The notes beneath the pieces were generated by a model, which saw only the letters and a program-made list of their open reading frames with translations, was not told where the DNA came from and ran no database searches. Below are positions 15,955 to 61,624 of a DNA stretch of 64,000 nt, in pieces. Location: assembly GCA_015478725.1 (NCBI GenBank), contig JADMIG010000014.1, positions 1-64,000 on the forward strand. The letters run 5' to 3'. Within the stretch, counting starts at the first letter, position 1; every line of letters begins with the position of its first letter. The DNA comes from Chloroflexota bacterium. Its GTDB lineage: Bacteria > Chloroflexota > Limnocylindria > Limnocylindrales > CSP1-4. Both the position numbers and the translations under genes were made by a program.

Positions 15955-17277
15955 TCAGGCACGGCTCGCGCCAGCCGGCAGATCCGCCTCGAAACGTGCC
16001 CCACCGCCCGCCGCCTCGCCCACGACGAGCGAACCGCCGTGACGCTGGACGATCCATTGGGCGATCGCCAATCCGAGGCCCGTGCCGCCGCTGGACGCAC
16101 CCGGCGCGCGCCAGAAGCGGTCGAAGACGTGGCTCCGGTCCTCCTCCGGGATGCCAGGTCCGGCGTCCTCGACGATGAGCCGTCCGCCGTCGTGTTCGCC
16201 GGGTTGGACCGTCACACGAACGACGGATCCAGCCGGTCCGTGGCGGATGGCATTGTCGACGAGGATCGTGACGAGCTGCCGGAGGCGAGTCGGGTCTCCC
16301 GTGAGCGGCGTCGCCGATCCTTCGACCTGGACATCGATGGATCGTCCGGCGGCGACGGTCCGCAGGCCATCCACCGCGTCCGTCGCGATCCGCTCCAGAT
16401 CGAGCGGTTCAGGTGCGAGCTCCTCGATCCCCGAATCGGTCCGCGCGAGCAGGAGCAGGTCGCCGACGAGCCCCGCGAGGTGGTCGACCTCCGCCCGCAC
16501 GTCGGCGAGGGCCTCCGACTCCGTGCCGAGGGTCCGCTCCGGATGTCGCTCGAGATGTTCGACGGTGGCGCGGATCACGGCGAGCGGCGTCCGCAGCTCG
16601 TGGCTCGCATCGGCGGCGAACTCGCGCTGGCGGCGGAGCGAGTCGCGGATCGGGACGAGCGCCCGCCGCGCGTAGACCCAGCCGCCGGCGCCGGCGGCGG
16701 CCACGGCCGCCAGCCCGCCGACGACGAGGATGAGGAGGAGCGTGCGGAGCGTTCCCTGCTCGGCGCTGATGTCCTGGACCACCTGGAGGACGACCGTCCC
16801 GTTGGCTCGCGGGACGGGAAGGCTGAGGACCCGGACCGGGACCCCACCCACCGATGCGGTTCGGACGTCCGTCAGTCCGGCGAGTGCGGCCTTCACGCCC
16901 GCGTCGATCGGAAGGCCCGCCAGGCGATTCGACGGACCGATGACCTGGCCGGTGGGTGTGACGATCATCGCGATGGTCCCCGGCGCCGGTCCACCGAAGG
17001 AGACGCCCACCGGCGCCTCGCCGGCCGGCCGGTCGGGGAACGGGTCGGGGACTTTGGAGACGAACCGCTCGGTCGTTGCCACGCGATGCTGGAGCTGATC
17101 GAGGCTCGTCGTCGCGAGCGAGCTTGCGACGGCGGCATAGATCGCGGCGCCGAGGATGGCGAGGACGGCGAGCATCGTCCCGGCGCTCCACGCGACGAGT
17201 CGCCAGCGCGTCCTCCGAAGGAGCGGCGCGTCCGGCCCAGGACCCGCGATCGGGGCGGGTCGCGGCGCGTCGGTCAT
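15955..17277 (-). CDS. Sensor histidine kinase
   Basis: Membrane histidine kinase of 440 residues paired with the regulator upstream. A helix near residues 25-50, an extracytoplasmic sensor (about 50-185), a second helix (about 190-215), then H-box DASHELRTPLAVIRA, N-box LVDNAIRHG, G1 DAGPGIPEEDR and G2 GGTGLGLAIAQ. The signal is unknown. ATG 17277 overlaps the regulator stop by ATGA, so the kinase is translated second from the same message. Confidence 0.9.
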   Translation of the reverse strand: MTDAPRPAPIAGPGPDAPLLRRTRWRLVAWSAGTMLAVLAILGAAIYAAVASSLATTSLDQLQHRVATTERFVSKVPDPFPDRPAGEAPVGVSFGGPAPGTIAMIVTPTGQVIGPSNRLAGLPIDAGVKAALAGLTDVRTASVGGVPVRVLSLPVPRANGTVVLQVVQDISAEQGTLRTLLLILVVGGLAAVAAAGAGGWVYARRALVPIRDSLRRQREFAADASHELRTPLAVIRATVEHLERHPERTLGTESEALADVRAEVDHLAGLVGDLLLLARTDSGIEELAPEPLDLERIATDAVDGLRTVAAGRSIDVQVEGSATPLTGDPTRLRQLVTILVDNAIRHGPAGSVVRVTVQPGEHDGGRLIVEDAGPGIPEEDRSHVFDRFWRAPGASSGGTGLGLAIAQWIVQRHGGSLVVGEAAGGGARFEADLPAGASRA

Positions 17278-17957
17278 GGTCCGGCGAGCCGGTATCCGAC
17301 TCCACGGACGGTCTGGATCCGCGCGCCCTCGACGCCGAGCTTCGTCCGCAGGTAGTGGATGTACACCTCGACCGCGTTCGGGGTGAGGGCGGCGCCCACC
17401 GGCCATGCCCGATCGAGCAGCTCGTCGCGCGAGAGGACACGTCCCGGATTCCTGAGCAGGCACTCGAGGAGGGCGAATTCCTGGCGCGAAAGGTCGATCT
17501 CCGTGCCGCCGAGATACACCCGCCGCGATGCTTCGTCGAGGACGATGCCGCCGCTGACGACGCGTCGCTCCGCCCTCCGGCCCACCCGGCCCGACGTCGC
17601 GCGGCGATCGAGTGCCCGTAGTCGCGCCGCGAGCTCGTCGTAGGCGAACGGCTTGACGAGATAGTCGTCCGCCCCGGCGTCGAGCCCGGCGACCCGATCG
17701 TCGATCGCATCCCGGGCGGTGAGCATGATGATCGCGAGACTCGAACCGCTCGCCCGGATTCGACGGGCGACCTCGAGACCCGAGATATCCGGCAGCCCGA
17801 TGTCGAGGATCATCGCGTCGATGCCACCCGCCGCGCCGAAGAGCTCGAGCGCCGTCTCGCCGCGTTCGGTGACATCGACGACGTGCCGGTCGTCACGGAG
17901 CAGGCGGGCGAGCGCGCGGCCGAGCCGGACGTCGTCCTCGACGATGAGCAGGTGCAC
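17274..17957 (-). CDS. OmpR/PhoB-family response regulator
   Basis: 227 residues: receiver domain (acidic pair EDD near residue 8, phospho-acceptor Asp in MILDIGLPDISGLE, KPFAYDELAARL) and a C-terminal winged helix (SRQEFALLECLLRNPGRVLSRDELLDRAW, then YIHYLRTKLG and TVRGVGYRL). It would control target genes on phosphorylation by the kinase encoded next. The glycine-rich exported protein gene ends 32 nt after... its start side on the same strand, so it could be part of the same regulon or operon. Confidence 0.92.
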   Translation of the reverse strand: MHLLIVEDDVRLGRALARLLRDDRHVVDVTERGETALELFGAAGGIDAMILDIGLPDISGLEVARRIRASGSSLAIIMLTARDAIDDRVAGLDAGADDYLVKPFAYDELAARLRALDRRATSGRVGRRAERRVVSGGIVLDEASRRVYLGGTEIDLSRQEFALLECLLRNPGRVLSRDELLDRAWPVGAALTPNAVEVYIHYLRTKLGVEGARIQTVRGVGYRLAGP

Positions 17958-17989
17958 CGCGCTACCGATTCATGACCGTGGACCGGCGG

Positions 17990-18586
17990 CTACTGGCCCA
18001 CGACGGTGATGTCGGAGGCCGGGCCGATGGTCCGGGTGCCGCCGACACGAGGGCTCGCGGCCGGGCTCGCGCCCGCACCCGGTGCGGTCCCACCGCCACC
18101 GCCCGGCACGCCGCCCGCTCCGGCGCGGATCTGGACGAGCACGGTCGAGCCGGCTGCGACCGCGCTCGCGGACGCTGCCGTCTGCTGGTGGTACGTGGTC
18201 GAGCTGTCGACGGGGATATCGATCGTCGTTCCATTCGTGAGCTTGAGCGTGATGTGGTCGGCCGTGATCGCGGTCAAGGTACCGCGAAGTGCGGCGGTCC
18301 CGCCGAAGATCCGGCCGATGCCGCCGCCGCCGAGCCCGGCTGCCCCGCCGGTGCCACCGTTGCCGCCACCGAAACCGTTGCCGAGGCCTCCGGCACCTCC
18401 GCCGAACCGGCCGACCGCGACGGCCGCCGCGGGCGCTGTGACCCGACCGGCCGCGAACCCCACGCCGCCGATCGCGATGAAGGCGGCGACGAACAGGAGG
18501 ATCGTGAGGGGATCACGCCGCCCGACGGGTCGCCCTGCGACGACTGGGGTCGGCTGGATCGGGTGGGTCGGCTGGATCGGGTCCAT
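17990..18586 (-). CDS. Exported glycine-rich membrane-anchored protein
   Basis: 198 residues: short Pro/Gln-rich cytoplasmic start, one hydrophobic helix (ILLFVAAFIAIGGVGFAAG), a Gly/Asn-rich stretch, then a beta-rich segment (TLTAITADHITLKLTNGTTIDIPVDSSTTY) like DUF5666-type domains, and a Gly/Ala/Pro tail. Function unknown. ATG 18586 follows GGAGACC. It lies upstream of, and on the same strand as, the two-component pair, which may regulate or be co-expressed with it. Confidence 0.7.
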   Translation of the reverse strand: MDPIQPTHPIQPTPVVAGRPVGRRDPLTILLFVAAFIAIGGVGFAAGRVTAPAAAVAVGRFGGGAGGLGNGFGGGNGGTGGAAGLGGGGIGRIFGGTAALRGTLTAITADHITLKLTNGTTIDIPVDSSTTYHQQTAASASAVAAGSTVLVQIRAGAGGVPGGGGGTAPGAGASPAASPRVGGTRTIGPASDITVVGQ

Positions 18587-34949: not shown

Positions 34950-35445
34950 GCGCGAGGGCTCCGCCTGCCCGTCGCCGTCACTCGTCCGGCCCTGGCCGCC
35001 GTTCGACCTCGCCGCATCTTCGCTCTCGCTGCGTGCGCCGGCCTGATGTTCTCACGGGTCGCAGCGTCGGCCCGTGCCGGGCCTTGGCGCTCATGCGCTC
35101 GCGTGGCCGGCGTGGCCGGCGTGGCTCGGCGTGGCCGGCGAGCCTCGCCCAGCGTTCCATCCGACGCTGGAAGGGATCGGCGTGGCCGGCGTGGCTCGCC
35201 CAGGGTTCCAACCGACGCTGGAGACTGGCCGCGAGCGATCGGCCGTGCCCTGTCTGCGGCAGTTCGCTCGCCCAGCGTTCCATCCGAGGGATGACGCCCA
35301 TCGTCGGCACGCACGACGGACCGGTCGCGCAGCCGTCCAAAGGCGTCGTGCGCCGGTTGGATCGTCCGGCGTTCCGGCCCCGGCGTTCCGGCCCCGAGGT
35401 TCCCGGCGTCCCGGGCTCGCCCGGCGTTCCCGGCCATCCGGCGCC
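34950..35445. repeat. Repeat-rich non-coding region
   Basis: About 500 bp without a supportable gene. It contains GTGGCCGGC units (around 35101-35140 and 35180-35200) and three imperfect copies of CTCGCCCAGCGTTCCATCCG (35144, 35196 and 35267 onwards). The first and second copies continue into CGCTGGA and so form a CCAGCG...CGCTGG palindrome. CCCCGGCGTTCCGG-type repeats occupy 35370-35440. The spacing is irregular and the copies differ, so it is not a CRISPR array. Confidence 0.6.
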
Positions 35446-35670
35446 TCAGTGATCGCTGGAGGGATGCGCCCGCTCCCGCACGAGCGAGAGGGCGAGCACC
35501 GGACAGACCTCGACCGCTCGCCGGGCGAGCGGCACGAGCCGGTGCGGGATCGGCCCCGATCGGAAGATCGGATAACCCCAGTCGTCGAGCGCGATGTGCT
35601 CGGGCAGGAGCTCGGCACACATGCCGTAGCCGTCGCAGCGGATGCGGTCGATGCGAAGGACGTCGCCCAT
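35446..35670 (-). CDS. Small single-cluster ferredoxin
   Basis: 74 residues. Ligand pattern CDGYGMC with a later CP (EVCPVLAL) fits the [3Fe-4S]/[4Fe-4S] ferredoxins that serve cytochrome P450s and other oxidoreductases; the middle position holds Gly-Tyr-Gly rather than a second Cys, so a [3Fe-4S] cluster is likely. Last gene of the five-gene redox operon, 1 nt after the NuoF-like gene, and a probable electron partner of it. Confidence 0.85.
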   Translation of the reverse strand: MGDVLRIDRIRCDGYGMCAELLPEHIALDDWGYPIFRSGPIPHRLVPLARRAVEVCPVLALSLVRERAHPSSDH

Positions 35671-35671
35671 C

Positions 35672-36919
35672 TCAGACACGCCTCGCTGCCGCCGTCGGCC
35701 GTGAGCAGCCGTGCGTCCGCTCGTGGAGGGCGAACTCGTCGGCGAAGACGCGGAGACCGCTCTGGAGGAGGCCCGCCGCCCCATCCGGGTGGTGGCAGGC
35801 GCCGCGGCCGGCGATCTGACCGGCCCAGCGCGTGACATCGGCGAGGTCGCCGTCGTGGTGGGCTCCGGTCGCGAGCCGGCGAAGGGCCCCGGAGATGGCG
35901 CCGAGTCCGAAGATGCACGGGCCGCACTGGCGGGCGCTCTCGCCCGCCATGTACTCCATGATCCGGGACGTCGCCCACACGCCACATGCGTCCGCGGGCA
36001 GGAAGGCGACCATCCCGCAGCCGAAGCCGAGGCCGCGTGACGAGAGCGACGCAGGGTCGAGGGGCTCGTCCCAGCGACCCTCGGTCGCTGCCCAGCCGCC
36101 GAAGTACCCGCCGAGGAGCACCGCGTCCGTCGCTGCGGTCAGGCCGCCGGCCGCGTCGACGAGCTCGCGGAGCGTCGTCCCGTATTCGATCTCCCGGACG
36201 CCCGTCCCGGCAACGGGTCCGGTGACGGTCACGAGCGCGGTCCCGGGGGTCAGATCGCGGCCCGTGGCGCGAAACCACTCGTCGCCATGGCGGGCGATGA
36301 GCGCGGCGGCCGCAAGGCTCTCGACGTTCTGGATGAGCGTCGGCCGCCCGCCGAGCCCTCGTTCGTGCGGACGCGGTGGGACGGCCATGGGGCGGGCGTC
36401 GCGAGCCTCGAGGTAGTGGACCATCGCCGACGACTCGCCGGCGATGTATCCCATGGGTGCCTCGACGATCCGGAGCGGCGGTCCGCCGCCGAGAGGTCGT
36501 TCCGCGACGGCCCGCACGAGCGCGTCGACCGCCGCCCGGTGCTCCATCCCGACGTAGAGGACGACGTCGTCCGCCCCGACGGCGGCTGCGGCGAGGATCG
36601 CCCCGTCAATGACGAGATGCGGGCGCAGGGTCATGAGCGAGCGATCCTTTGCGCTCCGTGGCTCACCCTCCGCCCCGTTCGCGACGACCGCCGCTCGACC
36701 GCCCGATCGCGCCCCGACGCTTCGCCACTTCCTGCCGACCGGGAACCCCGCGCCACCTCGGCCGAGGAGTCCGCTGCGCTCGATCGTGTCGATGAGGCCG
36801 TTGCGGGCGTCGGCGATCGGCAACGGCCCGAGGCGCGCTCGATGCTCGGCGAACGACTCCGCACCGGCGCTGAACTGCGGTCCGGCGAGCAGGCGATCCG
36901 CCGTCGCTGCGGGCGCCAT
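35672..36919 (-). CDS. NuoF-like NAD(P)H-binding flavoprotein
   Basis: 415 residues related to the 51-kDa subunit of complex I: FMN loop GRGGAGFPVGRKW, NGAEGEPRSAKDR, GYIAGESSAMVHYLEA, RPTLIQNVESLA and an SLBB-type segment. The [4Fe-4S] ligand motif reads ESARQCGPCIFG; compared with ESCGQCVPCRVG of the other NuoF in this window, the first Cys is Ala. The distal Cys is in GRGACHHPDG, which adds two His. So one ligand is lost or replaced and the cluster may be [3Fe-4S] or His-ligated. No NuoE partner is fused or adjacent. It would oxidise NAD(P)H and feed the ferredoxin or the membrane haem protein encoded next to it. Confidence 0.85.
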   Translation of the reverse strand: MAPAATADRLLAGPQFSAGAESFAEHRARLGPLPIADARNGLIDTIERSGLLGRGGAGFPVGRKWRSVGARSGGRAAVVANGAEGEPRSAKDRSLMTLRPHLVIDGAILAAAAVGADDVVLYVGMEHRAAVDALVRAVAERPLGGGPPLRIVEAPMGYIAGESSAMVHYLEARDARPMAVPPRPHERGLGGRPTLIQNVESLAAAALIARHGDEWFRATGRDLTPGTALVTVTGPVAGTGVREIEYGTTLRELVDAAGGLTAATDAVLLGGYFGGWAATEGRWDEPLDPASLSSRGLGFGCGMVAFLPADACGVWATSRIMEYMAGESARQCGPCIFGLGAISGALRRLATGAHHDGDLADVTRWAGQIAGRGACHHPDGAAGLLQSGLRVFADEFALHERTHGCSRPTAAARRV

Positions 36920-36921
36920 CG

Positions 36922-37500
36922 TCAGCGATCCCGTCGCTGGGTCGGAGGCAGTGCCGCGTCGATCTCCGTCCGCAGCGCAGCGGTCGCCTGCGTCCGCCAG
37001 GCGAGCGCGCCGACGACGGCCGCCACGCAGGTGCCGTTGAGCAGCCATGCCCACAGGGCGCCGCTGTCGCTGCCGGTGCCGAGCCCGTGCGCGATGGCGA
37101 TCGGCCACGCCCCGTACGAGAGCCAGTGGATCGCCCGCCACGTTCGGTGCCCGAGGTGCGTTCGCAGGAGGCTCGTGAGGATGATCGCGGCGACGAGGTA
37201 CATGGCGACGACGCCAAGGCCGAGCCAGAACTGGCGGTACGGCGACGAGAACGGGATGAGGGCTGCCGCCAGGCCGAGCGAGGTGAACGGATCGAGGACG
37301 GCGATGAGGATGTGGATGGCGAGGAACACCACCGCGAGGAGGGCGACATTGCGGTGGAATTCGGCGGTGAGGAATCGAGGCCAGCCAGGCCGGCCCCACC
37401 GGGCGACGGTGAGGATGCCGAGGCAGACGACGACGGTGAGGAGGATCTGCGAGACCATCCCGGCACCGCGGGTCGCGTACCACAGGATGCTCGCGCTCAT
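36922..37500 (-). CDS. Ferric-reductase-like bis-haem membrane protein
   Basis: 192 residues with about five or six membrane helices. Two helices each carry a His pair 13-15 residues apart (FHRNVALLAVVFLAIH and IHWLSYGAWPIAIAH), the arrangement that holds two stacked b haems in ferric reductases and MsrQ. It lacks the FAD/NAD domain of full ferric reductases, so electrons must come from a partner, presumably the NuoF-like protein and ferredoxin. ATG 37500 overlaps the apbE stop by ATGA. Confidence 0.85.
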   Translation of the reverse strand: MSASILWYATRGAGMVSQILLTVVVCLGILTVARWGRPGWPRFLTAEFHRNVALLAVVFLAIHILIAVLDPFTSLGLAAALIPFSSPYRQFWLGLGVVAMYLVAAIILTSLLRTHLGHRTWRAIHWLSYGAWPIAIAHGLGTGSDSGALWAWLLNGTCVAAVVGALAWRTQATAALRTEIDAALPPTQRRDR

Positions 37501-38543
37501 CGAGCTGGCTCGGCCCTCGCCGGGGCGTCGGCCCTCGCCGGGGCGTCGGTCGTCGGCGGGGCGTCGGTCGTCGGCGGGGCGTCGGTCGTCGGCGGGGCGA
37601 TCGTCGCTGCCGGGGATCGCTCGATCGGTGCCGCCGGCCAACCGCCGACGCGGACGATCTCCCCCTCCGCGGAGACGAGTCGGGCGGGCAGGTCGAGCGC
37701 CTCGAGCCAGGCGATCGCCGATGCGCCGCGGATGATCGACGCGGTCGCGGCGATGTTCGCGTCGACGCACGTCGCGGCGATGACCGAGGCCGTCCGCCAG
37801 GGGCTGTCCGCCGGCGCACCGGTCCGCGGGTCGATGAGATGGTGGGCCGCGACGTCGCCGCGGATCCATCGTCGGACGGTCGTGCCGGACGTCGCGACGG
37901 CGCCACCCGAGATCGCGATCACCTCCCCGTCCGCATCGATGGGAGTCGAGCTATCCTCGGCGACGAGGATCCGCCAGCCACCCTCCGGTGCCGAGCCGGC
38001 CGTCGCGATGTCGCCACCAAGGCTCACGAGGACGCCGCCGGCCTGGCCGCTCTCGAGCGCGACCGCTGCGGCGAGGTCGGAGGCGAGCGCCTTGCCGACC
38101 GACCCGAGGTCGAGCTCAACGCCAGCCGAAAGACGGACCTCCCGCGTCCGGGAGTCGAAGTGGATCGCCTGCCAGCCCGGGACCGGCTCGAGCCGGATGT
38201 GGAGCGGCTCGGAGCGCTGGCCGAGGCGGCTGAAGTCGTCGTCGTAGCCGGCCATGCGCATCGCGCGCCCGACCGTCGGATCCACCAGGCCGTCGCTGAG
38301 GCGTCCCGCCCGGATGCTCGACTCGATCGCCTGGGCGAACAGCCGGCTCGCGACGAATGGCCGGCCGGCCGCCGCATTGAGCCGGCTGAGCTCGCTGTCC
38401 GATCGGAATCGGCTGTATGCGAGATCCACCTCGTCGAGCAACGCGGCAACGGCGGATCGGGCGCGGGCGAGGTCTCCCTCGAGGACGAGAAGGTGGGCGT
38501 TCGTACCGAGTGCCCGCCAGGTCGCCGTGGTCACGTCGCTCAT
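37497..38543 (-). CDS. apbE: FAD:protein FMN transferase (ApbE)
   Basis: 348 residues; ApbE links FMN covalently to Thr of exported redox proteins. Motifs: MGTNAHLLV-like start (RALGTNAHLLVLEG), SRFRSDSELSRLN, GLVDPTVG, LDLGSVGKALASD, GGDIATAG and HHLIDPRTGAPAD with the metal site. No export signal is clear. The C-terminal 35 residues are a repetitive Ala/Pro/Thr/Asp tail (APPTTD three times, then APARAD) encoded by an 18-bp tandem repeat and are not part of the enzyme. It overlaps both neighbours by ATGA. No known flavinylation target with an FMN-binding domain lies in the window. Confidence 0.9.
   Translation of the reverse strand: MSDVTTATWRALGTNAHLLVLEGDLARARSAVAALLDEVDLAYSRFRSDSELSRLNAAAGRPFVASRLFAQAIESSIRAGRLSDGLVDPTVGRAMRMAGYDDDFSRLGQRSEPLHIRLEPVPGWQAIHFDSRTREVRLSAGVELDLGSVGKALASDLAAAVALESGQAGGVLVSLGGDIATAGSAPEGGWRILVAEDSSTPIDADGEVIAISGGAVATSGTTVRRWIRGDVAAHHLIDPRTGAPADSPWRTASVIAATCVDANIAATASIIRGASAIAWLEALDLPARLVSAEGEIVRVGGWPAAPIERSPAATIAPPTTDAPPTTDAPPTTDAPARADAPARAEPAR
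37513..37602. repeat. 18-bp tandem repeat at the 3' end of apbE
   Basis: Five units of 18 bp: two of GCCCTCGCCGGGGCGTCG, two of GTCGTCGGCGGGGCGTCG and one ending GATC. They encode the APARAD and APPTTD repeats at the ApbE C-terminus. Copy number could vary without shifting the frame. Confidence 0.75.
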
Positions 38544-38920
38544 GACACCCCGGTGGTCACCTGCGCCGGTGCCGCGATGTTCGTCGCGGTCGTCGTCGAG
38601 GGTCTCAGGGTAGCGGACGGTGTCAGCGCCGCGGCAGCGGACCGCGCGATCGCGGAACCGTCGTCGCCGCCGTTGCTGTCGTCGCCGCCGCTCAGGACGC
38701 CGAAGAGCGTGCCGCTGACGGACGTGACCCCGGCGGCGGAGCGTGCAGTCGTACCGGTCGACGCCGTCGCCGCGTGGGAGCCGGGATTGGTGATCGCGGC
38801 GAGCGAGCCGAAGCCGATGACGGCCGCAAGGCTCGCGAGCGCGGTTCCTGTGGTGGCGCTGCGCAACCGGGCGAGGGCCCGATCGCGATCGATCGTCGTG
38901 TGGCGGGTCGCGGTGTTCAT
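38540..38920 (-). CDS. Small exported protein heading the redox operon
   Basis: 126 residues: short charged cytoplasmic start (DRDRALARLRSATTG), one hydrophobic helix (about 25-45), then an extracytoplasmic Ser/Thr/Ala-rich tail with an acidic Gly-rich patch (GGDDSNGGDDGS). No family recognised. Position as first gene, translationally coupled to apbE by ATGA, suggests it could be the ApbE substrate. The tail holds SVSGTLFG (Thr71), which resembles but does not equal the SGAT flavinylation motif of NqrC and RnfG. That role is inference. Confidence 0.65.
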   Translation of the reverse strand: MNTATRHTTIDRDRALARLRSATTGTALASLAAVIGFGSLAAITNPGSHAATASTGTTARSAAGVTSVSGTLFGVLSGGDDSNGGDDGSAIARSAAAALTPSATLRPSTTTATNIAAPAQVTTGVS

Positions 38921-58103: not shown

Positions 58104-58343
58104 ATGCGCTATGGCCCAGCCGACATCGCGGCGGTCCACCCTCCGATGGTTGCCGGCCACGTCCGGGCGACGGACTCGCGCACGACGGCGCTCGTCGACG
58201 GTGGGTTCGGCAACCCGGTCGGCGGGCGGCCAGGCCACTCCACGCGGAATACACTTTCGCGCCCGCTGGCTTACCGCGGTCTCAGGCCCTCTCACGCGTC
58301 CGCAGGTTTCGCCTTTTTTGTGACACGCGAGGAGGCCGGCTGA
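58104..58343 (+). CDS. Possible small protein upstream of terminase gene
   Basis: 79 residues from ATG 58104, with AGGAGG 10 nt upstream. The stop codon at 58341-58343 overlaps the terminase ATG (TGATG). The sequence (YGPADIAAVHPPMVAG, FAFFVTREEAG) has no recognisable family and weak coding character, so it may simply be leader sequence. A T6 run at 58314-58320 lies inside it. Confidence 0.3.
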   Translation: MRYGPADIAAVHPPMVAGHVRATDSRTTALVDGGFGNPVGGRPGHSTRNTLSRPLAYRGLRPSHASAGFAFFVTREEAG

Positions 58344-58849
58344 TGGGCGCCCGTGGTCCGGCCCCCAAGCCGCTCGCTCTCAAGATCCTCAACGGCTCGG
58401 CCGCCCACGACCCGCAACGGATGCCCAGGAACCCGGCCCAGCCGGCGCAGGTCGCGCCGGAGCTGCCGCCCGACCTCTCGCCGCGGGCCCGCGACCTGTG
58501 GCACGAGACGCTCGCCCAGCAGGCGCCGGGGGTCATCCTCGCCGCCCACGGCCCGTCCCTCCGCGCCTACGTCGAGGCGGTCGCCCGCTATGAGGAAGCG
58601 GCGGTGCTCCTGGCGGGGAGCGGCCCGCTCGTCCGTGCCGACGGTCGTGGCGCCCGTCGGGGCGAACTCGTCAAGAACCCGCTCGTGTCGATTGTCCGGG
58701 GCGAGGCCGACCTCATCCGGGTCTTCGCCCGGGAGCTTGGCCTCACGCCGTCGTCGGTCTCGGCGTTCAGCAACGTCCGGCCAGCGGTCCCGGAGGACGA
58801 TCCGATGCTTCGGCTCCTCACCCCGATCCGGTCGAAGCGGAGGGCGTGA
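58343..58849 (+). CDS. Phage terminase small subunit (P27 family)
   Basis: 168 residues. The start GARGPAPKPLALKILNGSAA with the motif NP.QP, and WHETLAQQ..LRAYVEAVARYEEA, NPLVSIVRGEADLIRVFARELGLTPSS match the P27-like small terminases that recognise phage DNA for packaging. ATG 58343 follows GAGGAGG. The large terminase that normally follows is absent from the window, so this is a remnant or part of a satellite element. Confidence 0.85.
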   Translation: MGARGPAPKPLALKILNGSAAHDPQRMPRNPAQPAQVAPELPPDLSPRARDLWHETLAQQAPGVILAAHGPSLRAYVEAVARYEEAAVLLAGSGPLVRADGRGARRGELVKNPLVSIVRGEADLIRVFARELGLTPSSVSAFSNVRPAVPEDDPMLRLLTPIRSKRRA

Positions 58850-59124
58850 TGAGCACGACGAACTACACCCGCCAACAGTGCGACGTCTGCGGGCGCGAGC
58901 AGGACTTCCCCCAGGGCAAGAGCGGATATGGCGCCCTGACGATGGAGGTCCGTGGCCCTCGTCTCCAACCCAAGGTGGATGAGTACGCCGATCTCTGCTC
59001 GCTCGCCTGCGCCGAGAAATGGATGGCGGCGGTGGTCAAGAAGGTCACCGCCAAGCTCGCTCCGCCATCGCCGCCTCCGATCGTGGTGGCCCCCAAGGGC
59101 TACGCGAAGGCAGAGCGGGCGTGA
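58849..59124 (+). CDS. Small zinc-binding hypothetical protein
   Basis: 91 residues with CDVCGRE near residue 11 and CSLACAEKW near residue 50, a likely four-Cys zinc knuckle, and a Lys/Pro/Ala tail. Phage islands often carry such proteins. The start ATG 58849 overlaps the terminase stop (TGATGA). Confidence 0.65.
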   Translation: MSTTNYTRQQCDVCGREQDFPQGKSGYGALTMEVRGPRLQPKVDEYADLCSLACAEKWMAAVVKKVTAKLAPPSPPPIVVAPKGYAKAERA

Positions 59125-59217
59125 ACCGGATCGGGGCACCTTCGCCCACAGCCGCCACGGTTGGCCCACGTGCCGCGATGAGCGCGCCACTGGCCACGGG
59201 CGCCACCCCACGAAGAA

Positions 59218-59243
59218 GGGCCCCAGGCGCGCGCCCGGGGCCC
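59218..59243. terminator. Bidirectional terminator between convergent genes
   Basis: GGGCCCC (59218-59224) and GGGGCCC (59237-59243) form a perfect 7-bp stem around a loop that is itself self-complementary (GGCGCGCGCC). It sits between a plus-strand and a minus-strand gene. No T-tract. Confidence 0.55.
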
Positions 59244-59264
59244 GAGGGTCGGCGATGGGGTGAT

Positions 59265-59468
59265 CTACGCGATGCTGGCCTCGCGGTCGAGCCGCGCCAG
59301 GTCGCGGTCGAGCCGCGCCAGGTGGCGGAGCTCGTCGCGCTCGTCGGTGAGGCGGGCGAGCTCGTGGACCGTGGCCGTGTTGAGGCGGCCCCATCCGTCT
59401 CGGCGGCGGCGGCGGATCGCCTCGTCGAGGTCGTCCGCGATCTCGTCGAAGGGGTGTCGCGCGGTCAT
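59265..59468 (-). CDS. Small charged hypothetical protein
   Basis: 67 residues, Arg/Asp/Leu-rich and helical (FDEIADDLDEAIRRRRRDG, LARLDRDLARLDREAS). The C-terminus is encoded by a short direct repeat. The three minus-strand genes here lie 3 nt apart, so they form an operon. Function unknown. Confidence 0.5.
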   Translation of the reverse strand: MTARHPFDEIADDLDEAIRRRRRDGWGRLNTATVHELARLTDERDELRHLARLDRDLARLDREASIA

Positions 59469-59471
59469 CGC

Positions 59472-59936
59472 TCAGCCCGCCTCCTCGACGGTGAGGGGTT
59501 CAGACATCGCCAGCAGCAGTCCGGAGGCCCTCGCGACGTCCGCGTCCTCGAGGATCTGCTGACCGGCCTCGGTCCCGGCACCGCCCGCGGCGGCGAGCTC
59601 GGCCTCGATCTTCGCCCGCCGACGCGTCACGGCGGGGGACTCGGCGACGGTCCGGATCGGCTCCGGCTTCTTGGCCTTCTTTGCTCCGTGGACGACCGGC
59701 GGGGTGCCGGTGCCGACCGGCAGCGCCGTGCCGGCGGCCTTGCTCGCGATCGACGCCTTCCGGAGCGCCCGGGTGTACTCCGTCCAGTGGGGCCGACACA
59801 TGGTCCCGAGGCCGTCCTTCCGGCTGGGCTGGACCGGGAAGTCCTCGATCGGCGCCTCGTGGGCCTCGATCCCGAAGGTCTTCGAGCCGATGCACGTGCG
59901 CACGACCGTGATGGTCGGGTTCGTCTCGGTCGTCAT
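59472..59936 (-). CDS. Hypothetical phage-island protein
   Basis: 154 residues. The N-terminal third (VVRTCIGSKTFGIEAHE, GTMCRPHWTEYTRAL) has two Cys and three His that might hold a metal. The middle is Lys/Pro-rich and the C-terminus helical (RRRAKIEAELAAAG). No family recognised. ATG 59936 is followed closely by its upstream neighbour's stop. Confidence 0.55.
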   Translation of the reverse strand: MTTETNPTITVVRTCIGSKTFGIEAHEAPIEDFPVQPSRKDGLGTMCRPHWTEYTRALRKASIASKAAGTALPVGTGTPPVVHGAKKAKKPEPIRTVAESPAVTRRRAKIEAELAAAGGAGTEAGQQILEDADVARASGLLLAMSEPLTVEEAG

Positions 59937-59939
59937 GAT

Positions 59940-60143
59940 CTACTCCTTCTCGATCGGGTTATCGGGGGCGTACTCGCCCTCGGCGAAGAGGCGGTCGGAG
60001 ATGATCTGCAGCTCGTGGCGGGTCAGGGCCATGTCTCCGACGTGGCCCCAGTGCAGGTCGTCGCCCGCCGGTGCGTCGTCGTGGTTCTCGAGCGCCTCGG
60101 TGATGCGGGCGAGCAGGGCGAGCGCGTCGGCCCGGAGCGCCAT
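59940..60143 (-). CDS. Small hypothetical protein with unclear start
   Basis: 67 residues from ATG 60143 (ALRADALALLARITEALE, MALTRHELQIISDRLFAEGE). A good ribosome site GGAAGGGAG lies further up and is followed after 7 nt by an in-frame ATC at 60182; translation may start there, giving 80 residues. GTG 60239 and TTG 60260 are other in-frame options. First gene of the three-gene minus operon. Confidence 0.45.
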   Translation of the reverse strand: MALRADALALLARITEALENHDDAPAGDDLHWGHVGDMALTRHELQIISDRLFAEGEYAPDNPIEKE

Positions 60144-60283
60144 GTAGGCGTCAAGAGCGGTGCTGCCTCTGGTGCTCGTGATGTCGGTTCTCCCTTCCGT
60201 GGTGCCCGCCGATCTGGCGGGTGCATGACCATCACTCACTCGTGCGGTGCACGAAGTCAAGGCGAAAGATCGGCGGTCGCCGC

Positions 60284-61624
60284 ATGAGCGCGAAGGCCGC
60301 TCCCGTCGCGCCGCCGGCCTGGCGGAACCGCATCGTCGGCTCCGGCGAGGTCGCCCCCGACCAGCTCCTCGCCAACCCCGCGAACTGGCGCGTCCATCCC
60401 GCCGCCCAGCGGAACGCCCTCCGCGGCTCGCTGTCCGAGGTCGGCTGGGTGGCGCAGGTCATGGTCAACCAGCGGACGGGATACGTCGTCGACGGCCACG
60501 CCCGCATCGAGGAGGCCCTCTCTCGCGGCGAGACCTCCGTGCCGGTCCTGTACGTCGATCTCTCGCCCGAGGAGGAGGCGCTCGTCCTCGCGACCCTCGA
60601 CCCGATCGGGGCGATGGCCGAGCAGTCCACCGAGCGGCTCGAAGCCCTCCTCGCGGACATCACGGTGGACGACGCCGGGCTGGAGGCGCTCCTCGCGAGC
60701 ATGCGGCCGCCGCGGGCGGGGCTCGTCGATCCCGACGACGTGCCGGACGTGCCGGAGGAGTCGTTCGTCCGACCGGGCGAGCTCTGGGCGCTCGGCGACC
60801 ACCGCCTGTTGTGCGGCGACGCCACCAACGCCGAGGACGTCGCACGCCTCCTCGACGGGGCGACCCCGACCCTCCTCGCCACCGACCCGCCGTATGGCGT
60901 GTCGCTCGACCAGACCTGGCGGGATGGCGTGTACAACGGCCCGCAGAAGCGCGTCCGCGGCTGGGACGTCACGCAGGGCGCCGAGCGGCCGTACATGGTG
61001 GTCGGCCGCAAGATGCGCGGCGACGGCAAGGCGGGCGCGCGCACCGCCGGCCATCGCAACATCACGATCAGCGGCGATGTCCGCGCCGACTGGTCCGCGG
61101 CGTTCGCCCTCGTGCCCTCCCTCCAGGTCGGCTACATCTGGTACGCGTCCGCCCACACCCTCGAGGTGCTGGCGGGTCTCCTCGACATCGGCTTCGAGCT
61201 CGTCGCCCAGATCATCTGGGACAAGGGGCTCTTCTCGATCGGCCGCTCGTGGTACCACTGGGCGCACGAGCCGTGCTTCGTCGTCCGTCGGCCGGGCCTC
61301 CCCAACCTCTTCATCGGCGAGCGGAACCAGGCCACGATCTGGCGCGCACCCAGCCCGAAGCGGCTCGGCTCAGGGAGCACCGAGGAGAAGCAGGATCACC
61401 CGGCGCAAAAGCCAGTCGTCCTGTCGGAGACGCCGATCCGCAACCACCTCGCGCCCGGTGGGCTCGTGTACGACCCCTTCCTCGGCAGCGGCACGACGCT
61501 CATCGCCGCCGAGCGACTCGGCCGACGCTGCTACGGACTCGAGGTCGAGCCGCGCTACTGTCAGGTCATCATCGAGCGCTGGCAGAATTTCACCGGCCGG
61601 CCGGCGGAGAAGATCGATGGCTGA
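60284..61624 (+). CDS. DNA methyltransferase with N-terminal ParB-like domain
   Basis: 446 residues. Residues about 15-115 are a ParB/sulfiredoxin-type domain (GYVVDGHARIEEALSRG, VPVLYVDLSPEEEALVLATLD). The rest is an amino-methyltransferase: catalytic LLATDPPYGVSLDQ and, near the end, the S-adenosylmethionine motif YDPFLGSGTTLIAAERLGRRCYG, the order of beta-class enzymes. Common in phages and mobile elements. No restriction gene is adjacent, so it is an orphan modification enzyme. ATG 60284 is chosen by family fit. Confidence 0.9.
   Translation: MSAKAAPVAPPAWRNRIVGSGEVAPDQLLANPANWRVHPAAQRNALRGSLSEVGWVAQVMVNQRTGYVVDGHARIEEALSRGETSVPVLYVDLSPEEEALVLATLDPIGAMAEQSTERLEALLADITVDDAGLEALLASMRPPRAGLVDPDDVPDVPEESFVRPGELWALGDHRLLCGDATNAEDVARLLDGATPTLLATDPPYGVSLDQTWRDGVYNGPQKRVRGWDVTQGAERPYMVVGRKMRGDGKAGARTAGHRNITISGDVRADWSAAFALVPSLQVGYIWYASAHTLEVLAGLLDIGFELVAQIIWDKGLFSIGRSWYHWAHEPCFVVRRPGLPNLFIGERNQATIWRAPSPKRLGSGSTEEKQDHPAQKPVVLSETPIRNHLAPGGLVYDPFLGSGTTLIAAERLGRRCYGLEVEPRYCQVIIERWQNFTGRPAEKIDG

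Follow-up and report, generated by a model that had tools for sequence, protein, structure and literature searches.

MsrQ-like flavinylation clusters, in which a PF01794 protein is encoded together with ApbE and an FMN_bind protein, have been described in a survey that also found 31 of them to carry a NuoF-like PF10589 protein (Meheust et al. 2021, PMC8238504). That survey dropped proteins lacking signal peptides, and genomes with an orphan ApbE remained. As far as the available portions of the sources go, ApbE transfers FMN to the final Ser/Thr of an [S/T]GA[S/T] motif (PMC8238504, PMC12052999), and the substrates they name are FMN_bind/NqrC, NqrB/RnfD, DUF2271, DUF3570, Flavodoxin_4 and FMN_red (PMC8238504, PMC11334425). 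A seven-residue ApbE tag is sufficient for modification and works best at a terminus, according to the accessible text of PMC12052999, and in trypanosomatid NADH:fumarate reductase FMN is carried by Ser9 near the N-terminus of a protein that itself contains an ApbE-like domain (PMC8065229).

The locus described here encodes the familiar redox partners of such a cluster around a small protein of an unfamiliar kind. Its five genes occupy the minus strand at 38920-35446 of the window (the whole 64,000-nt stretch of DNA analysed) and are translationally coupled, successive stop and start codons overlapping or lying a few bases apart, with an ATGA at the gene 1/apbE junction. These coordinates and junctions, along with the Pfam assignments, bear out the five-gene coupled redox operon of the original prediction. 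Its features are as follows.

38540..38920, minus strand: gene 1, 126 aa, no family match; proposed flavin carrier
38543..38557, minus strand: gene 1 residues 122-126, the C-terminal TTGVS; putative flavinylation motif, Ser126 being the proposed acceptor
37497..38543, minus strand: apbE, 348 aa, PF02424 (E=2.6e-51), of the Asn/Thr metal-site subfamily
37743..37763, minus strand: ApbE DANIAAT (residues 261-267), with Asn at the canonical metal-ligand Asp position and the Thr kept
36922..37500, minus strand: haem protein gene, 192 aa, Ferric_reduct PF01794 (E=2e-8), MsrQ-like, five helices
35672..36919, minus strand: NuoF-like gene, PF01512 (E=9e-32) and PF10589 (E=4e-17), NAD(P)H/FMN/Fe-S protein
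35446..35670, minus strand: ferredoxin gene, 74 aa, Fer4_15 (E=7e-11)

In the reading that we consider probable, these genes encode a chain that carries electrons out across the membrane from NAD(P)H, and ApbE links FMN, through a phosphoester bond, to the serine that ends a flexible gene 1 product.

The same five-gene order, sought in other genomes as the original prediction had proposed, is present in three relatives (L034, L036, L038), in which genes were called with a codon-usage model, and recurs in L035 with a ferredoxin truncated at the contig end. Beyond these the unit changes in composition: two clusters (L040, L041) retain gene 1 and are without nuoF and ferredoxin, a more distant set (L043-L048) has a longer haem protein, and in L151 gene 1 stays at the operon head with apbE moved to the operon end. 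Since gene 1 is kept in L151, L040 and L041 while the NAD(P)H module varies, the minimal conserved core consists of gene 1, apbE and the haem protein. This core was found in Chloroflexota, where many families have it, and on plasmids of actinomycetes (Rhodococcus, Gordonia, Arthrobacter, Cnuibacter, Streptomyces), where gene 1 is mostly unannotated; on those of Cnuibacter, Rhodococcus, Gordonia and Arthrobacter the annotated order reads FAD:protein FMN transferase, ferric reductase-like, NuoF-like, ferredoxin. Across 73 haem-adjacent apbE loci, gene 1 homologues lie directly upstream of apbE in most. Conservation of gene 1 together with apbE, a test named beforehand, was found to extend over both phyla. 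A scan of the genome collection with the NuoF-like protein alone returned two loci only, both in MAGs labelled Changshengia or Dormiibacterota. Several of the actinomycete plasmid clusters also contain a two-component system, VIT-family and DUF2231 genes.

Gene 1 has no match to any Pfam family up to E=1, among them FMN_bind, DUF2271, DUF3570, Flavodoxin_4, FMN_red and NqrB/RnfD, nor to any NCBIfam family. Its AlphaFold model, built with 11 homologues, contains a single helix (residues 7-44), and residues 48-118 have a pLDDT below 50; the protein is thus predicted to consist of one N-terminal membrane helix and a disordered linker, with no flavin-binding domain. Net positive charge ahead of the helix suggests an N-in, C-out orientation. 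The linker varies freely in length and sequence among homologues, and it is the extreme C-terminus that is conserved. The SGT at residues 69-71, originally put forward as the acceptor site, is not conserved in homologues and has to be abandoned in favour of the last residues, [ST]GGS.

Homologues of gene 1 end in this [ST]GGS, sometimes followed by one or two further residues, while the window copy ends in TTGVS; its last residue, Ser126, is invariant among 11 aligned homologues. Residues 123-126 (T-G-V-S) fit the pattern [S/T]-G-x-[S/T], most homologues having S-G-G-S there. Because ApbE is known to modify the final Ser/Thr of [S/T]GA[S/T], the protein terminates in what resembles an ApbE target. 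The resemblance is partial: the leading Asp of D-x-x-[S/T]-G-A-[S/T] is absent throughout, and Val or Gly replaces the Ala before the putative acceptor. In the accessible text of PMC12052999, the motif Asp is reported to be of little importance in one enzyme, and in another system flavinylation fell to about half its level when Val replaced the motif Ala, which counts against TTGVS in the window as an acceptor site.

Tails elsewhere depart further from the known motif. On actinomycete plasmids the small ORF directly upstream of apbE, usually unannotated, ends exactly in Ser (TTKGS, SAGS, HTAAS, TTRAS). Departures from [S/T]GA[S/T] include the actinomycete TTRAS, SAGS and TAAS as well as TRSSR and QSGKP, the last two lacking the Gly-Ala of the known ApbE motif, and further clusters in the home family have tails such as TTRQSGAKP and TSASGKP. 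Many upstream ORFs listed by the gene search are non-coding frames; one candidate small protein was picked per locus by its distance to apbE and its membrane-helix score, ignoring the tail. Ser then occurs in the last two residues of 53/67 candidates versus 54/420 background genes (Fisher 6e-28), and the final seven residues contain [ST]Gx[ST] in 13/19 of the Asn/Thr set versus 2/420 (Fisher 9e-19), figures that overstate certainty because related loci were counted as independent, and that refer to a tail motif defined after the data had been seen. Conservation of the tail beside a free linker holds irrespective of these counts.

The window ApbE (PF02424, 175 bits) resembles the solved ApbE structures 1VRM and 6NXI, and the catalytic Ser and His (Ser241 and His257 in the Vibrio enzyme) are present in it and in essentially all aligned ApbEs. 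Its metal site is altered. In E. coli ApbE the side chains of D280 and T284 hold metal 1 (PMC4767422); here the Asp (D285 in Vibrio, D280 in E. coli) is replaced by Asn and the Thr (T284 in E. coli) is kept. At this pair of positions ApbEs have Asp/Thr beside FMN_bind, Asn/Thr in the window group and Glu/Lys in most others. In a tree computed without the metal-site columns, a branch with support 99 separates the Asn/Thr ApbEs, actinomycete plasmids included, from the rest. All 7 ApbEs with an adjacent FMN_bind are Asp/Thr, and none of the 80 Asn/Thr or Glu/Lys ApbEs has one (Fisher 9e-8), a single regular-expression FMN_bind match inside a gene 1 linker (L158) having been discounted by eye. 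Substrate class and active-site class thus travel together. Judged by its sequence, the window ApbE is a homologue within a variant ApbE subfamily, and a transferase role is predicted for it; its activity is not certain, because the metal-ligand Asp is lost. In the Glu/Lys enzymes the lysine may stand in for a metal ion. The window ApbE has no hydrophobic N-terminus and no evident signal peptide, which requires an enzyme of the cytosol to modify a tail whose final place is outside. Cytosolic ApbEs do exist, as stated in the available part of PMC12052999, and with no evident export signal on this one, flavinylation of the tail would probably take place in the cytosol, either ahead of translocation or while it is under way.

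Whether gene 1 is the substrate depends in part on what else these genomes offer. The claim that no FMN-binding acceptor domain is encoded stands for the operon, a Pfam search of whose five genes revealed no FMN_bind and so ruled out an overlooked one, but not for the genome: its only PF04205 (FMN_bind) protein is found on contig C31, where a Ferric_reduct/FNR-like fusion belongs to the same, separate cluster. A canonical target elsewhere had been named in advance as evidence against the proposal; this one, however, has its own ApbE of a different class, Asp/Thr, and relatives whose only ApbE is in the gene 1 cluster lack FMN_bind. Three genomes of the latter kind (G021, G025, G402) contain none of DUF2271, NqrB/RnfD, Flavodoxin_4 and DUF3570 either; the tested genomes that have a single ApbE and lack FMN_bind, 12 in total, are all without these four. 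The single-contig genome G205, with a TRSSR-type cluster (tail VTTRSSR), follows this pattern: a single ApbE, no FMN_bind and none of the four families. ApbE was detected in 247 of 400 sampled Chloroflexota genomes and FMN_bind in 91. Most of 39 loci, drawn mainly from genomes that encode a single ApbE but not FMN_bind, have a haem protein adjoining apbE and a small membrane protein directly upstream, with tails of TRSSR, SGGS, TRAS, TRSS or similar. A third cluster in the window's own genome, on contig C2, pairs a haem protein with a small one whose tail is QVTTGASAAP, and has no apbE where relatives have one; given the likeness of this tail to the gene 1 tail, the two small proteins may share one ApbE.

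These distributions bear on the alternatives to gene 1 flavinylation. The operon ApbE might flavinylate another protein, the C31 FMN_bind protein for example, with gene 1 as an accessory subunit that uses its C-terminus to dock ApbE or the haem protein and bears no flavin itself. A conserved tail could indeed be a docking peptide, TRSSR tails differ from the known ApbE motif, and a canonical FMN_bind protein is present in this genome; yet that protein is adjoined by its own Asp/Thr ApbE, the relatives having only a gene 1-cluster ApbE are devoid of FMN_bind and of the four other known substrates, and the conserved tail residue is a hydroxyl residue in an ApbE-target-like motif, all of which makes docking an unlikely explanation. 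Another alternative is that the subfamily may no longer be a transferase, serving instead as an FAD-binding or FAD-hydrolysing partner while gene 1 binds something else. About 80 members have Asn or Glu for the metal-site Asp, and over 50 have Lys for the Thr, which would agree with such a loss. Nonetheless, essentially all members retain the catalytic Ser and His, and the substitutions are fixed per subfamily, each with a Ser-tailed partner, which looks like adaptation rather than decay, and we regard loss of the transferase function as improbable. It is very improbable that the locus is an ordinary MsrQ-like/NuoF flavin cluster with a missed FMN_bind partner and an incidental gene 1: clusters of MsrQ-like and NuoF-like genes with apbE and FMN_bind are certainly on record (PMC8238504), but in and beside the Asn/Thr loci examined there is no FMN_bind gene, and gene 1 is there instead, in the same position in two phyla.

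The remaining three proteins supply plausible redox partners for the putative gene 1-bound flavin. In the haem protein His 49, 63, 125 and 138, located in two helices, are invariant across two phyla, in agreement with the two haems originally predicted, and two stacked haem b sites are likely. Its model (pLDDT 82) has five long helices, and its best Foldseek match is human STEAP1 (E=0.08); VIA-align Z scores are 6.4 to NOX5 and 6.3 to STEAP1, values that unrelated seven-helix receptors equal or exceed. The NuoF-like protein retains the glycine-rich and acidic motifs and scores far below the NuoF equivalog cut-offs. It was rightly called altered: in its N3 motif (ESCGxCxPC) the first Cys is replaced by Ala, in the window and in all 9 aligned homologues, leaving three Cys rather than four. 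The ferredoxin, which weakly matches solved ferredoxins, P450 partners among them, has three cluster cysteines (C12, C18, C56), the last followed by Pro57, invariant in 10 sequences, a pattern suggestive of a [3Fe-4S] cluster.

A chain assembled from these parts would begin with oxidation of NAD(P)H by the NuoF-like protein, which would pass single electrons to the putative [3Fe-4S] ferredoxin; this in turn would reduce the inner haem b of the five-helix protein, and the electron would cross the membrane to the outer haem, which would reduce FMN joined as a phosphoester to the gene 1 C-terminal serine by the operon's ApbE. Gene 1 would thus act as a membrane-anchored tether, and because it is flexible and without a flavin-binding domain its flavin could move back and forth between the haem protein and an acceptor outside, which may be Fe(III). 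These components are most naturally read as passing electrons outwards from NAD(P)H; we infer this direction and the final acceptor, just as we infer the topology and the flavinylation at Ser126, and iron is suggested by the VIT-family genes nearby on some actinomycete plasmids. The proposed chain fits everything found, and overall the earlier interpretation is partly supported. With somewhat less assurance we favour a broader generalization, in which the window operon represents a phylum-wide class of disordered, membrane-tethered carriers bearing FMN on or next to the C-terminal residue, served by ApbE subfamilies of their own in which metal ligands are replaced, the Glu/Lys lysine possibly substituting for metal.

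If so, the class would help explain orphan ApbE genes, many in Chloroflexota genomes without FMN_bind and some in Actinomycetota, and would define ApbE subfamilies with new active-site chemistry. The original description of an undescribed variant does not hold for the operon type, since clusters pairing MsrQ-like and NuoF-like proteins with ApbE were reported in 2021 (31 clusters, PMC8238504); what appears to be new to flavin-based extracytoplasmic electron transfer is the proposed domain-less substrate type and its matching ApbE subfamilies. No description of either was found in the open-access PMC text searched, and no disordered C-terminal substrate is among those listed in the available parts of a 2024 study and a 2025 review (PMC12052999).

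With the MsrQ-like flavinylation clusters (PMC8238504) the operon shares a bis-haem MsrQ-like protein, ApbE, a NuoF-like NAD(P)H donor and, in some actinomycete versions, VIT-family iron neighbours. Where those clusters have FMN_bind, however, it has a disordered candidate substrate with a C-terminal Ser, and its ApbE differs in having an altered metal site and no evident signal peptide. Covalent FMN on a Ser/Thr of a short motif, mostly in extracytosolic electron transfer, is common to the known ApbE substrates and the gene 1 proposal; whereas those described in the accessible sources all have a folded domain, gene 1 is predicted to have only a membrane helix. In FMN_red substrates the flavin sites lie on an unstructured C-terminal extension (PMC11334425, in the part available). 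Trypanosomatid fumarate reductase (PMC8065229) likewise combines a Ser acceptor at an extreme terminus with an intracellular ApbE, but there the motif belongs to a large flavin-using enzyme and here to a stand-alone tether. The engineered flavin tag, in the accessible text of PMC12052999, is also a short terminal peptide with no folded flavin site, although the tag is artificial and built on D-x-x-[S/T]-G-A-[S/T] while in gene 1 the Asp is missing and the putative acceptor is the last residue. Should the proposal be correct, gene 1 would be a remarkably simple flavoprotein, consisting of no more than anchor, flexible linker and C-terminal flavin, and a natural version of that tag.

Past the end of its family profile, the ApbE of the operon is extended through a series of tandem repeats, and a second set of repeats lies in the gap 3' of the operon:

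37512-37595, tandem PPTTDA/PARADA repeats at the C-terminus of ApbE
35123-35294, GC-rich imperfect repeats of ~49 nt, in three copies

Two further regions of the window were noted:

17277-18586, a response regulator adjoining a small exported protein
58343-61621, a phage terminase small subunit-like gene and a ParB-like protein gene

The small exported protein in the former resembles one found beside the haem/apbE cluster of another genome, G022 (L044 8195-8821). The latter, as assessed by eye only, is likely a prophage remnant.

Small proteins with other tails accompany related clusters. A tail of the xQSG(K/R/A)P type marks a further set of haem/apbE clusters (L091, L094, L095, L097, L105, L106, L107), several of which are adjoined by two-component systems. 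Upstream of the xQSG(K/R/A)P-tailed protein there is often an extra small protein, whose own tail is acidic. In several Chloroflexota families (L138, L141, L145) a PepSY-like protein, its tail acidic or rich in Gly, lies upstream of the TRSSR-tailed protein and may be a partner that binds metal. Haem proteins of 355–386 residues, with an additional C-terminal domain of ~130 residues, occur in clusters lacking NuoF (L043–L048).

The genome of the window itself carries two more systems on other contigs:

L051, contig C2, 4317-5913, third cluster, a haem protein and two small exported proteins
L050, contig C31, 4527-7206, canonical second system

L051 adjoins ABC transporter genes of metal type, and its second small exported protein ends in QVTTGASAAP; apbE is absent at this position, but present at the equivalent place in the relatives L092, L093, L100 and L110. 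In L050, a Ferric_reduct-FNR-like fusion of 446 residues is accompanied by an exported FMN_bind protein carrying SGATY and by an ApbE of the Asp/Thr metal-site class, which, like that of the window, has no evident signal peptide.
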